This document shows, one piece after another, positions 36,523 through 56,575 of a stretch of 64,000 bases of DNA. The notes below the pieces were generated by a model. The model saw only the letters and a program-made list of their open reading frames with translations, searched no databases and had not been told where the DNA came from. Within the stretch, counting starts at the first letter, position 1; each line of letters opens with the position of its first letter. The DNA is from Clostridia bacterium (GTDB lineage: Bacteria > Bacillota > Clostridia > Christensenellales > Aristaeellaceae), in NCBI GenBank assembly GCA_017404985.1, contig JAFRBK010000033.1, positions 24,233 to 88,232 on the forward strand. Reading direction: 5' to 3'. The position numbers were made by a program, and so were the translations under genes.

Positions 36523-37992
36523 TCATATTCCTGACGGTATTCCTGAAAATGCATTTCTGTTATGCTGATACTTCATCTGGCCCAAAAGATACAGGAATGC
36601 TGTGGAAGGAATTCTGTAGATCTCTGTTGTGTCTCTGCTTGACAGGCCATAATCTGAAATGCTTTTTGTAATCACATATCCCGGCTGATGATCCAGCGCT
36701 GCCGTTATGATCAGATCGTTGTCCCGAACAATACTCTGATTCCGTACCTTGGATTCAATCAACTGCCGGATTCCTGTTCTGTCACAGATCACAATATCAA
36801 TTTCCTTATCCCGACCAGCCTGAAGCATATATCCCACTCGCAGTGTCGGATCCACGCATCTGCAATAATCAATCGTATGTTTATATGCTGCCGACTCAAT
36901 CAAGTATCCTTTCTGAACAGGATCATCAGGCGAATGGAGTTCTGACATCACTGCCCCTCGAATTCCGCTGTCGGCAATGTGTACCTTTCGCCGTGTTTTA
37001 AGGATCTTTTTTCCTGAGCTGTTCACCTGTTCCGCACAGTAAATCAGGCCTGCGCTCTCCAGAATATCCATATACTTTATCACGGTGGCATTGGCAATTC
37101 CCTGCAATTCCCTGCAGATTTCTTCTACGTTAACGATGTTGGATGTTGTATTGCAGAAATAGGAAAAGACTCGCTTCAGCTGTGTTGGATTAACACGTTC
37201 TGTTGTTGTCAGGTCATTGAATATGACTTTATTAATGACATTCTCCTCAATCAAAGAAAGCGCATAAGGCTCATCCATTTGTGAAACGTCAATATACTCA
37301 GGAAATCCTCCGAGACGCAGATATCTGTTAAGCTCAGGTTCCACACCGGAAAGCTTCATCATGATGGAAGACTGGTCAGCTAAAGAAGCATCATGCAGCT
37401 TGAACAGATCATGAACTTCGATTCCCTGCATCCTGATTCCACGCAACTGACAATATTCATAGAAGGAAAGTGTGGGAATTCGTATCAGCCGCAGGCTTCC
37501 TTCCCAGGTTTCCCGGTATTTTCCATCAATTTTGAAGGAAGCGCTGCCCGTAGCCATAGCGTGAACTGCAGGAAAAGAATCATATATGAATTTCATCGCA
37601 CTTGTCCAGTCGTCATCCTTCTGAACTTCGTCCACGAACAGATAGAAGTCTTCTGACTGGCTGATCTGAGATTGGTAGATCATCAGAAGTTTCAGTATTC
37701 CCGCTTCCTCCATAGCGGAGGTATCCAGGCTTAGATACAGGATTTGAAATGGATTTATTCCAGATGCCAGCAAATCGCCGATCATCTGATGGACAATCGT
37801 GCTTTTTCCCACCCGACGAGGACCGCTCAGCACAGGAAACCTTCTGATTTTGTGCCAGAACACCTGTCCGCAAAGATAGTATTCACCCCTGCGGAACTGA
37901 AGGTCCTTTCTCTTATCCGTTTCCCCTGTCTGCCACCATGGATTTTGAACCCGCATCAGAGTAATCAGATCTGCTTCAGAGAAAATCGCCAT
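36523..37992 (-). CDS. AAA ATPase with DUF4143 domain
   Basis: 489 residues. The P-loop is GPRRVGKST (about residues 57-65), with a Walker B-like LFVDEVQKDDDW and a sensor-like ATGSASF. A winged helix follows (NVEEICRELQGIANATVIKYM), then a C-terminal DUF4143/PD-(D/E)XK-like domain (RDKEIDIVICDRTG, LIESKVRN; the E-x-K pair is nuclease-like). Such ATPases are common, often mobile, and of unknown role. The gene borders a 1.2-kb repeat field at its 5' side and its base composition is more AT-rich than its neighbours, consistent with recent transfer. Confidence 0.85.
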   Translation of the reverse strand: MAIFSEADLITLMRVQNPWWQTGETDKRKDLQFRRGEYYLCGQVFWHKIRRFPVLSGPRRVGKSTIVHQMIGDLLASGINPFQILYLSLDTSAMEEAGILKLLMIYQSQISQSEDFYLFVDEVQKDDDWTSAMKFIYDSFPAVHAMATGSASFKIDGKYRETWEGSLRLIRIPTLSFYEYCQLRGIRMQGIEVHDLFKLHDASLADQSSIMMKLSGVEPELNRYLRLGGFPEYIDVSQMDEPYALSLIEENVINKVIFNDLTTTERVNPTQLKRVFSYFCNTTSNIVNVEEICRELQGIANATVIKYMDILESAGLIYCAEQVNSSGKKILKTRRKVHIADSGIRGAVMSELHSPDDPVQKGYLIESAAYKHTIDYCRCVDPTLRVGYMLQAGRDKEIDIVICDRTGIRQLIESKVRNQSIVRDNDLIITAALDHQPGYVITKSISDYGLSSRDTTEIYRIPSTAFLYLLGQMKYQHNRNAFSGIPSGI

Positions 37993-38044
37993 GCGATCAT
38001 CGCCTCACAATAACGTTTTATGTAATTATATAATATTCTGTTTC

Positions 38045-38065
38045 GAATAAATTGTCAATTTATTC
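38045..38065. repeat. Perfect inverted repeat upstream of the DUF4143 ATPase gene
   Basis: GAATAAATTG (38045-38054) and CAATTTATTC (38056-38065) flank one base. It lies about 55 bp upstream of the ATPase start and could be an operator. A related segment (TTTATTATAAGTGCACTTCGAA) recurs at 38341. Confidence 0.5.
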
Positions 38066-38203
38066 TAATTGCACTTCGAATAATTGTACACATGAACGTA
38101 TATGAACAATACTTCTATGTCGGCTATGGGCTGACATCCCGTCTTCTCCAATTCCTGAAGGAGCGGTTACTGCTTTTCGTTTCACAGGGGTCTGTGTAAC
38201 GTC

Positions 38204-38300
38204 GGCGAATTGGCGAATAGGCGAATAGAGGTCTCCAGGCCTTGAAATATAAGGATTGTCTATTCGCCAGTTTGTGGCGAATAGGCGAATAGGCGAATAG
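38204..38300. repeat. Octamer/hairpin repeat element, copy A
   Basis: Three tandem octamers (GGCGAATT, GGCGAATA, GGCGAATA; 38204-38227), then a 9-bp arm GGCGAATAG (38220-38228), a 31-nt loop that itself holds GGTCT..AGGCC, the inverse arm CTATTCGCC (38260-38268), and three more octamers GGCGAATA (38276-38299). No gene is seen around it. Confidence 0.75.
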
Positions 38301-38373
38301 GGTTAAGATTATTCAGACTCCATTTTGAAAAATATGACAATTTATTATAAGTGCACTTCGAATTATTTGATAA

Positions 38374-38399
38374 TTCATTCAAAGAACACTTTGAATGAA
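38374..38399. repeat. Perfect inverted repeat between repeat copies A and B
   Basis: TTCATTCAAAG (38374-38384) and CTTTGAATGAA (38389-38399) with a 4-nt loop; AT-rich, no T-run, so an operator or element end is more likely than a terminator. Confidence 0.5.
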
Positions 38400-38504
38400 C
38401 ACGTCGACGATTCTTATGTGTTATTCACAGTCTGTTATCCCATTTTCTCAAATTTCTGAATTAGCGATTGCTGCTTTCCGTTTTACAGGGGTTTGTGTGA
38501 CGTC

Positions 38505-38595
38505 GGCGAATTGGCGAATTGGCGAATTGAGGCCTCCAGGCCTTGATATATAAGGATTGTCAATTCGCCAGCCCGCGGCGAATTGGCGAATTGGG
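38505..38595. repeat. Octamer/hairpin repeat element, copy B
   Basis: Lies 301 bp after copy A and is homologous to it with its flanks. Three GGCGAATT octamers (38505-38528), arm GGCGAATTG (38521-38529), a 31-nt loop with GGCCT..AGGCC, inverse arm CAATTCGCC (38561-38569), two more octamers (38577-38592). The last arm pair has changed from A-T to T-A relative to copy A, keeping the stem. Confidence 0.75.
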
Positions 38596-38660
38596 TTAAA
38601 TTTAGCTAACCGTCTGCCTGCTTCATCGGCAAAACGGCGAAACCACTCTGGAAAACGCCG

Positions 38661-39106
38661 GTGAAACTCAAAAAAAGTGAAACTCAAACGACCGGTGATC
38701 AGTAAAGGTTGCCGGTGATACTAAAGAAAAGTGTTACTAAAACGGTGATTTGATTCGTGAAAGGTATACCAGTGTTAACGGTTCTTTCTGTTATCCCACA
38801 TGCAACGCCTTGTTCAGTTTGTGACTCGAACTCTTTGTGGCTCGTTCTTTTTGGAACGTGATGAAACTCAAAAAAAGTGAAACTCAAACGGTGATCTGAT
38901 CCGTGTTGCCCGGCAATTCGAGTACAAGGAAAAGTATACACTCAAAATTCAGTACACTCAAAAACAGCAACGAAGATGTGAAAAATGGTCAAAAAGCTGA
39001 CCAGGGCTATTTCAGGAGGCGGTGACCTGGTTTTGTGTATCAGTTTTTTTGTGTATCAGTTCCGGGTTTTCAGTGATGAAACTCAAAAACAGTGAAACTC
39101 AAACAG
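38661..39106. repeat. Field of seven dimeric direct repeats with a constant 16-bp period
   Basis: Seven places hold a word of about 9-12 bp followed by a second copy exactly 16 bp later: 38661/38677 (GTGAAACTCA), 38715/38731 (GTGATACTA, GTGTTACTA), 38821/38837 (GTGACTCG, GTGGCTCG), 38861/38877 (ATGAAACTCA, GTGAAACTCA), 38937/38953 (TACACTCAAAA), 39035/39051 (GTGTATCAG), 39076/39092 (ATGAAACTC, GTGAAACTC). A homopolymer A or T tract usually separates the two copies. No gene with a ribosome site is seen from 37993 to 39222. Confidence 0.75.
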
Positions 39107-39180
39107 AATACGGAGAAACGACAGAAACGATCATCAATGATATTCAGGGATACTCCTTGACGGTTTCGACGCATATAAAA

Positions 39181-39207
39181 ACCCGCCCTCCATGAAGGAA
39201 GGCGGGT
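39181..39207 (-). terminator. Terminator of the cggR-pgk-tpiA operon
   Basis: ACCCGCC (39181-39187) pairs with GGCGGGT (39201-39207), extended by CCTCC/GGAAGG-like inner pairs; on the minus strand a TTTTTATAT run follows. It lies 16 bp after the tpiA stop. Confidence 0.8.
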
Positions 39208-39222
39208 AAGAAGACCGGGAGA

Positions 39223-39975
39223 TTATTTGTCGTAGTTCACAACCTGGCTGAAGTCGGGGGCCTTCAGGCTTGCGCCGCCGATCAGGCCGCCGTCGATTTC
39301 GGGCTGGGCCATGAGTCCCTTGACGTTCTTGGGATTCATGCTTCCGCCGTACTGGATGCGGATCTTGTTGCCCGTCGCCTTGCCGTACTTGCGGGCCACG
39401 GCCGCGCGGATCACGCCGATGGTCTCATTCGCCTGCTCATCGGTAGCGGTCAGGCCGGTACCGATCGCCCATACGGGCTCATAAGCAATCACGATCTTGG
39501 CAACCTGTTCCTTGGTCAGCCCGTTCAGGGCGATCAGGGTCTGGTATTCCACGAGCGCGTCGGTATATCCGGCTTCGCGCTCTTCCTTGTTTTCGCCCAC
39601 GCACAGGATGACCTTCAGGCCGGCTTCCACCGCGGCCAGCACCCGCTGGTTCACAGTCTTGTCGGTTTCACCGAAGTACTGGCGGCGTTCGCTGTGGCCG
39701 ATGATGACGTATTCCACGCCGCAGGCCTTCAGCATATCAGCGCTGAGCTCGCCGGTGAAGGCGCCGCTCTTGGCCCAATGCACATTTTCAGCGCCCAGGT
39801 GGATTTTGCTTCCCTTGGCCGCTTCCTTCACCGCGGAAAAGTTCGTAGCGGGCACGCAGACCACCACATCACAGGCCGCATCCTTCACCAGGGGCTTCAG
39901 TTCCGTCACCAGCGCGAAGGCTTCTTCGGGCGTCTTGTTCATTTTCCAGTTCCCGGCAATAATCGGTTTACGCAT
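39223..39975 (-). CDS. tpiA: Triosephosphate isomerase
   Basis: 250 residues, MRKPIIAGNWKMN start with Asn/Lys active-site residues, catalytic His in VIIGHSERRQYFGE, catalytic Glu in AYEPVWAIGTG, and the phosphate-binding GGSMNPKN/GGLIGGASL at the end. It interconverts dihydroxyacetone phosphate and glyceraldehyde 3-phosphate. Last gene of the cggR-pgk-tpiA operon, 21 bp after pgk. Confidence 0.98.
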   Translation of the reverse strand: MRKPIIAGNWKMNKTPEEAFALVTELKPLVKDAACDVVVCVPATNFSAVKEAAKGSKIHLGAENVHWAKSGAFTGELSADMLKACGVEYVIIGHSERRQYFGETDKTVNQRVLAAVEAGLKVILCVGENKEEREAGYTDALVEYQTLIALNGLTKEQVAKIVIAYEPVWAIGTGLTATDEQANETIGVIRAAVARKYGKATGNKIRIQYGGSMNPKNVKGLMAQPEIDGGLIGGASLKAPDFSQVVNYDK

Positions 39976-56431: not shown

Positions 56432-56439
56432 TACCCGCG

Positions 56440-56575
56440 GTTTGAAGAAACCAGTGCCGTAGACAGCCGGTGTCGAAAGACGTAAAGGGGCCTGCCCCGC
56501 CTGCCGAGGTGTGAGTGAGAAGGATTGTTTTCCCTTGCGCCTGCACGCAAGGGTTTCTTATTTTGAACCAGGCAG
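56440..56575 (+). promoter_or_regulatory. Ribosomal protein L10 leader RNA with attenuator
   Basis: The leader carries CCGTAGACAGCCGGTG and, further on, CCTGCCGAGGTG, the conserved flanks of the L10(L12)-binding leader of Firmicutes. A terminator follows: CCCTTGCG (56532-56539) with CGCAAGGG (56546-56553) and a T-rich run. Excess L10 would promote termination. Confidence 0.92.

Follow-up and report, generated by a model that had tools for sequence, protein, structure and literature searches.

The seven short direct repeats at positions 38661-39106 of the window, the 64,000-nucleotide stretch of Clostridia bacterium DNA analysed here, are real and non-random. Each is a dimer whose second copy follows the first at a step of 16 bp, and fixed spacing around a word whose two copies vary together is a mark of a two-site recognition element. 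Dimers of this kind are dispersed over the bacterium's own genome and adjoin genes of a prophage family, designated here as ORF2. With roughly even confidence, we read the dimers as dispersed, strand-polar recognition sites of prophage ORF2 proteins, serving as an autoregulatory operator at home (beside ORF2) and forming an ectopic cluster in the window. ORF2 as the candidate partner would provide a testable protein-site pair with approximately 16 natural word variants.

The seven dimers comprise five words (modules A to E) and are listed with the other features of the region in Table 1. The gap between the two flanking genes wholly contains one listed open reading frame of at least 80 aa (80 aa, 38699-38941, minus strand), which is taken as accidental. 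No curated RNA family reached threshold within the array. Promoter prediction for the array gave four promoter-like sites, all on the minus strand (2.5 in shuffles), and no plus-strand promoter.

Table 1 Features of the array region, in positions of the window.
Feature	Position	Strand	Remark
AAA_14/DUF4143 gene	36523-37992	-	One flank of the array region
H element copy 1 (GGCGAATA/T octamers and hairpin)	38204..38301	+	5' side of the array
H element copy 2	38505..38594	+	
Module A dimer (GTGAAACTC x2, step 16)	38661..38688	+	Word A also adjoins ORF2 at C3 and C45
Module B dimer (GTGATACTA/GTGTTACTA, step 16)	38715..38742	+	Word B also adjoins ORF2 at C44
Module C dimer (TTTGTGACTCG/TTTGTGGCTCG, step 16)	38818..38844	+	Word C also adjoins an ORF2 fragment at C12
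Module A dimer	38861..38888	+	
Module D dimer (TACACTCAAAA x2, step 16)	38937..38963	+	Word D also directly 3' of ORF2 at C40
Hairpin (TGGTCAAAAAGCTGACCA)	38986..39003	+	Terminator-like on the minus strand
Module E dimer (TTTTGTGTATCAGTT x2, step 16)	39031..39061	+	ORF2 partner not found
Module A dimer	39076..39104	+	
tpiA (named from its sequence)	39223-39975	-	Other flank of the array region

The original prediction stated that the same word recurs 16 bp later at seven places. All seven pairs were recovered when the array was aligned at lag 16, and five of them contain an exact 9-mer or longer (starts 38661, 38862, 38937, 39031, and 39077). Strict identity fails in the pairs at 38715 (GTGATACTA/GTGTTACTA, two differences within the 9-mer) and 38821 (GTGACTCG/GTGGCTCG, one difference). 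The region 37993-39222 holds seven exact 9-mer pairs at lag 16, and two of these (38276 and 38505) are 8-bp GGCGAATA/GGCGAATT tandems absent from the earlier list, so the seven exact pairs counted differ from the seven pairs claimed. In 1,000 dinucleotide shuffles, the mean number of exact lag-16 pairs was 0.006 and the maximum was 1, and in 200 shuffles across lags 5-40 the maximum never exceeded 1; shuffled sequence did not give as many pairs, the outcome named at the outset as refuting the observation, and the repeats are non-random. Across the 64-kb window, a search at 10 or more of 11 matches gave ten lag-16 places, consisting of the seven claimed pairs, the two octamer arrays, and 57662. 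The proposed autocorrelation analysis, conducted over 38640-39120, has its peak at lag 16 (0.372; runner-up lag, 0.312). Each of the seven pairs ends at two copies, and the suggested element copied in 16-bp steps thus has no support.

The suggestion of a small repeat family was borne out in the own genome (G000; 2.98 Mb, 85% complete, with its contigs given by C numbers). A word-A pattern with up to three mismatches had 35 matches there and its reversed control had none. Regular expressions for the five words detected 66 modules, the seven of the window among them, across the 16 array loci that were fetched (A 26, B 13, D 11, C 9, and E 7). This count covers variants within reach of the expressions and excludes the home copies (C3, C44, C45, C40, and the end of C12). 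Two or more modules are present in 14 of these loci, and in every one of the 14 they lie on a single strand and are never mixed; the minus strand is used in 4 of the 16 loci. Twenty 20-kb stretches of this genome, located away from the array sites then known, showed no lag-16 run of 11 or longer. The array loci are clearly related to one another, and half-matched intermediates of module C exist.

The GGCGAATT octamers and the hairpin are also present in the arrays. Among 17 distinct hairpin copies, which are paralogues picked out of 96 overlapping matches, 92.9% of the cells pair. Cells changed on both sides number 10 versus 3.6 in shuffles (0 of 500 as high), and hairpin pairs with a change on both sides number 3 versus 2.1 (131 of 500 as high), which is unremarkable. 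Arrays as the 3' tails of co-directional genes were considered and rejected, the gene 5' of the array being co-directional, as judged by eye, in approximately 7 of 12 loci, with no bias. As a separate observation, AAA-type ATPase genes adjoin 3 of the 16 array loci (window:36523-37992, L324:6371-7684, and L009:3166-4212); the one at the window is the AAA_14/DUF4143 gene, and those at L324 and L009 were judged from their sequences. Module A also stands between TerS-like and ORF2 genes as a tandem of four 53-54 bp units (L010:168-356 at C3 and L021 at C45), and a comparable 54-bp tandem of A lies inside the array at C37 (L019).

ORF2 is a prophage gene family encoding proteins of approximately 190-260 aa. 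At E 1e-10, 13 of the 45 genomes searched in the genus had matches (partial and transposase matches included); at E 1e-20, 11 of 308 family genomes had them, and these 11 all belong to the own genus. Nine IMG/VR loci encode ORF2 relatives, two of them being the same stretch. For the ORF2 proteins scanned, Pfam, PHROGs, and NCBIfam gave nothing below E 0.01, nor did Pfam for four further members; there was none among PDB sequences (best E 0.39), and one member compared with 50,697 phage records had no match. ORF2 has no named family in the libraries searched, and the dimers with their candidate partner are not assigned here to any known family. In its N-terminal part, ORF2 resembles the N-terminus of a 577-aa DDE_Tnp_1 transposase. 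A transposase as the partner of the dimers was rejected, since this likeness is confined to the N-terminal part and no transposase was seen recurring at the arrays (judged from short ORF starts). In an AlphaFold model (mean pLDDT 83.1, pTM 0.50), the N-terminal part is predicted as a beta sheet and the C-terminal part as helical, and structural comparison of the model gave no informative match. Among open-licence PMC papers, as represented by their titles and the starts of their abstracts, no description of these dimers or of ORF2 was recognised.

To quantify the association, we searched the 200-nt flanks of 36 ORF2-family genes, both upstream and downstream, for repeats at lags 6-40 with 10 or more of 11 matches. 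The 36 genes comprise 28 from the 49 rows of the genus search and 8 viral genes; the other 21 rows had absent or cut flanks or were fragments or transposases. A lag-16 repeat lies within 200 nt of 28 of the 36 genes, which include paralogues and near-identical copies and are not independent. Lag 8 is the second commonest (6 of 36), and a period of 8, 15, 16, or 17 is found beside 32 of 36. The same scan of 1,287 ORFs of at least 150 aa, on stretches of 12 genomes of the genus, gave lag 16 in 22; this control kept everything, including some stretches picked around dimer matches, and its highest rates were 6 of 53 in G112 and 6 of 49 in G154 (relatives are labelled by genome number, and many of their genomes are incomplete). 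Four genes were without a repeat in the scan. Among them, viral L344 has one once the scan takes in the stop codon, G158 C32 and G176 C18 have looser repeats only, and G186 C18 has none. Three cut or partial copies outside the 36 have no repeat: L320 (33 nt upstream only), L318 (upstream cut), and L313 (fragment). The longer b-type ORF2 genes have mostly 8-bp tandems, and the b-type gene at G174 C28, read after the scan, carries CACTCGAA x3 directly before the SD. Repeats are also present beside the ORF2 relatives on IMG/VR phage contigs. With respect to the binding of two sites by a protein, as originally proposed, the results establish an association with a specific gene family, and the binding itself is putative.

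The position and polarity of the home repeats are regular. Among the 32 genes, the repeat is upstream in 23, starting 28-173 nt ahead of the gene or domain hit, and downstream in 9. In several loci (e.g. G154, L341, L342, G174, and the G176 b-types) it lies right before the ribosome-binding site. In 32 of 32, the C-rich strand is the sense strand, as judged by eye from the words.

In G154, G186, and G000, the dimer sits between a TerS-like gene and a downstream ORF2. The TerS-like gene of G154 matches the PHROG terminase small subunit (3.1e-7), and its upstream neighbour matches the large subunit (1.1e-67). At G154 C52 and G172 C169, ORF2 directly follows TerL, and the dimer is located 3' of ORF2 with none at the TerL-ORF2 junction. 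Repeats are present beside TerS in many loci where TerS adjoins ORF2, and lie between the two in viral L344 and L345; at L331, where the two genes also adjoin, no repeat was scored. In the four loci where TerS does not adjoin ORF2 (L326, L330, L339, and L346), no repeat of period 8 or 16 lies within approximately 230 nt of TerS (0 of 4). A repeat adjoins ORF2 in three of the four (L326, L330, and L346) and none does in L339. L296 and L297, whose TerS is at the edge of the available sequence, agree with the pattern of the L326 type.

The two copies of each dimer change together. In 24 ORF2-adjacent dimers, with the register set by hand and relatedness among loci ignored by the statistics, the copies agree at 8.83 of 9 positions, as compared with a mean of 5.76 and a maximum of 7.0 in 10,000 trials with shuffled second copies. 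When identical pairs were collapsed (16 left, 12 of them exact), the agreement was 8.75 versus a mean of 5.19 and a maximum of 6.94. The 24 leave out the b-types, L340 and C45 (whose words are as at G158 C21 and C3), the imperfect second pair of G157, and two further dimers at G186 C31. This agreement is in line with the argument that ordinary decay could not alter a word identically in its two copies and leave the period intact. At one TerS-ORF2 junction found in seven genomes, the dimer is kept and the word differs: GTTTCACTC x2 in G154; GTTCCTCTC x2 in G186, G158, G179, and G172; GTTGCTCTC x2 and the second, imperfect pair in G157; and word A x4 (C3, C45) or word B x2 (C44) in G000.

Words of dispersed dimers match those beside ORF2 of the same genome in several cases. 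Four of the five array words adjoin an ORF2 of G000 (Table 1); no ORF2 partner was found for word E, and C6 of this genome is cut at the contig start. In G186, TTCGCACTC and TTGCACTC before the interrupted ORF2 at C31 resemble dispersed words of that genome. The two ORF2 copies at G000 C12 and G186 C31, which match array words, are a fragment or interrupted, a point against the ORF2-site reading. The sole ORF2 found in G132 is followed by GTTCCCCTC, and a solitary dimer of this word lies 1.1 Mb away at a place where no gene is evident and the longest stop-free frame is 105 codons. In G176, the intergenic locus L063 has a GTGCCTA pair at step 17, like a pair at step 16 before the ORF2 at C12, together with octamers like those before the b-type ORF2 genes at C14 and C33. 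Ten exact GTTCCTCTC dimers are present in the 45 genomes; among the seven that were read, six adjoin ORF2 and one follows a TerS-like relic, and the remaining three, in G186, are unread. ORF2 proteins of more than one subtype have GTTCCTCTC beside them (at G172 C147 and at G154 C52, where the protein is 45% identical to the ORF2 it was compared with), so the word is not simply set by the ORF2 sequence.

Comparison with relatives, as originally suggested, gave a divided answer: the words themselves are absent there, and the same kind of dimer is present at other places. The word-A pattern with at most one mismatch was found in 1 of 150 family genomes, which is the own genome, and the C/E pattern in 1 of the 45 genomes of the genus. 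A looser pattern, ACTMAAA-N9-ACTMAAA, was found in 9 of the 45, some matches being 8-bp tandems or accidental-looking. Its reversed control had 35 matches in the own genome and one or two in each of five others, and the looser pattern alone is therefore weak evidence. A contig scan with a looser pattern gave four scattered matches in other organisms, and in the two inspected the pattern used found no dimer of this kind. Congeners carry dimers whose words are unlike those of the window and are repeated in both copies. Genome-specific words precede ACTCAAA: AGTTTC or AGTGTC in G154, GTTCC in G172 and G181, GTTGC and TTTAC in G176, and TTCGC or TTTGC in G186. In 100-kb samples of G091 and G174, repeats were few, with almost none in G174.

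Empty sites were sought at two places. The gene neighbouring tpiA differs among congeners, so no usable empty-site comparison is available there. In G181 (L110), a GTTCCACTC dimer is located between an L7Ae-like gene and rpsL (identified by sequence), and the orthologous loci L111-L116 have degenerate look-alikes at the same place (e.g. TACACTCAAGAGGGTACACAAA), with no clean empty site. The ORF2 match is absent from G181, a genome that is 60% complete; this was counted against the dimers being ORF2 sites.

Tandem arrays with a 7-bp unit form a further class of repeat in the genus, with many in G132, G175, G150, and G066 (L180-L204, L220-L224). The unit length is constant per genome and the words vary (AATTCAT, AATTCAG, AGTGAAG, AATGAAC, GGTAGGA, and TTTTAAG); 14-bp alternations occur as well. 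ORF2 as a partner of these heptamer arrays is not supported, since neither b-type ORF2 nor ORF2 was found in G175, G150, or G066.

In the mechanism that we propose, ORF2 proteins would bind the dimers in an 8/16-nt register. At home, a repeat before the ribosome-binding site of ORF2 (or TerS) would act as an autoregulatory operator, more likely at the RNA than at the DNA level. The home repeat is often just before the ribosome-binding site of ORF2 or TerS, which makes an autoregulatory operator its likely job; this position and the strand polarity together would favour RNA, by analogy with gp32 of T4/RB69. The window array would be an ectopic site cluster able to bind the ORF2 proteins of several prophages. 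As no plus-strand promoter is predicted and approximately 7 of 12 genes on the 5' side are co-directional, an RNA role of the arrays themselves is unsupported. Array and home dimers have common words and little common flank: in a comparison over 25 nt, the flanks of array and home copies of one word are more alike than those of different words by 0-2.7 bases, and in three cases they are less alike. This was counted against the ORF2-site reading as regards the origin of the arrays.

Several other explanations compete with recognition by ORF2. The dimers could be partnerless interspersed repeats, kept alike by slippage or gene conversion and spread with prophage remnants by recombination, as the relatedness of the array loci, the intermediates of module C, and the 7-bp and 8-bp tandem arrays without a known partner in the genus would suggest. 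This reading is unlikely: the link to ORF2 (28 of 36 versus 22 of 1,287), seen also in separate viral contigs, would be unexpected, and common words with little common flank do not fit such a spread. The terminase-gene surroundings of the home dimers bring to mind pac-type packaging signals, with the arrays as chromosomal packaging starts or as signals of a multi-helper non-coding satellite. In SPP1 and SF6, pac has direct repeats, and boxA of SPP1 is replaced by a different pair in SF6 (PMC4737164). The dimers resemble the SPP1/SF6 pac region in having direct repeats in the terminase region with words replaced between relatives, and differ from it in tracking ORF2 rather than TerS and in the recurrence of their words in chromosomal arrays. 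The terminase neighbourhood and this precedent lend some weight to a packaging role. We consider it unlikely, as the repeat goes with ORF2, not TerS, in three of four loci where they are apart, many home repeats are at ribosome-binding sites, and several words stand in one array. It is likewise doubtful that the arrays are compiled recognition words of several resident or past prophages, acting as decoys or sponges that titrate ORF2 proteins from different phages, or as sites at which a non-coding satellite is packaged or mobilised by several phages. If so, an array would be a fixed-orientation record of the ORF2 phages encountered by the lineage, and its word could vary provided that both halves change. 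Arrays that collect words of several prophages would imply a new interference route among bacteria, prophages, and satellites.

The same protein-site pair could instead operate on double-stranded DNA, with the dimer as a transcriptional operator or as the site of a transposase-derived DNA-binding domain. The transposase match of the ORF2 N-terminal part and the lack of a predicted plus-strand promoter in the window array are consistent with this version, which we regard as quite unlikely given that the home repeats are between genes, near ribosome-binding sites, and of one polarity. Type III toxin-antitoxin loci (ToxIN and kin) have tandem direct repeats upstream of a small-protein gene. The dimers would be of this type if they encoded an RNA that neutralises ORF2, and the repeat does precede ORF2 in 23 of 32 loci, with word A present in four 53-54 bp units before ORF2 at C3 and C45. 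Such a system is very improbable here. Unlike a type III toxin, the scanned ORF2 proteins have no toxin family match; a search by sequence (Pfam and NCBIfam) found no ToxN/CptN/TenpN-type toxin among those beside the repeats. The usual form is one 16-nt pair, and the repeat is 3' of the gene in 9 of 32 loci.

With regard to recognition by ORF2, a close parallel to the proposed operator is gp32 of T4/RB69. This phage nucleic-acid-binding protein acts on repeated UUAAA/UAAA motifs near the start of its own mRNA's coding region, at the ribosome-binding site, and so represses that mRNA; the operators diverge between related phages (PMC535899). The likeness would lie in repeats close to the gene start, which 23 of the 32 ORF2-family genes have upstream and 9 have downstream instead, and repression by ORF2 is putative. 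The differences are that gp32 is a single-stranded-DNA-binding protein with a pseudoknot operator, ORF2 has no family match and an 8/16-nt register, and the ORF2 words, unlike those of gp32, are common to dispersed chromosomal arrays. TAACTGA heptamers and other long simple sequence repeats are short intergenic direct repeats, in one genome mostly close upstream of start codons, and a post-transcriptional binding site was proposed (PMC4679880). TAACTGA is, as described there, one constant heptamer with no known partner gene, whereas the dimers keep their period, vary in word, and have a candidate partner gene family. The seven window pairs, with two copies each, lack the contiguous variable-copy units of long simple sequence repeats; 8-bp GGCGAAT arrays in the same region do have contiguous units of that kind.

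Two minor features of the window were also observed. Three AT-rich, partly palindromic copies lie near the H elements (38041-38085, 38323-38367, and 38356-38400), the first of which overlaps a promoter-like site predicted for the AAA_14 gene. An Rfam L10 leader (RF00557) scored above the gathering threshold at 56439-56568 and is an ordinary ribosomal-protein leader.
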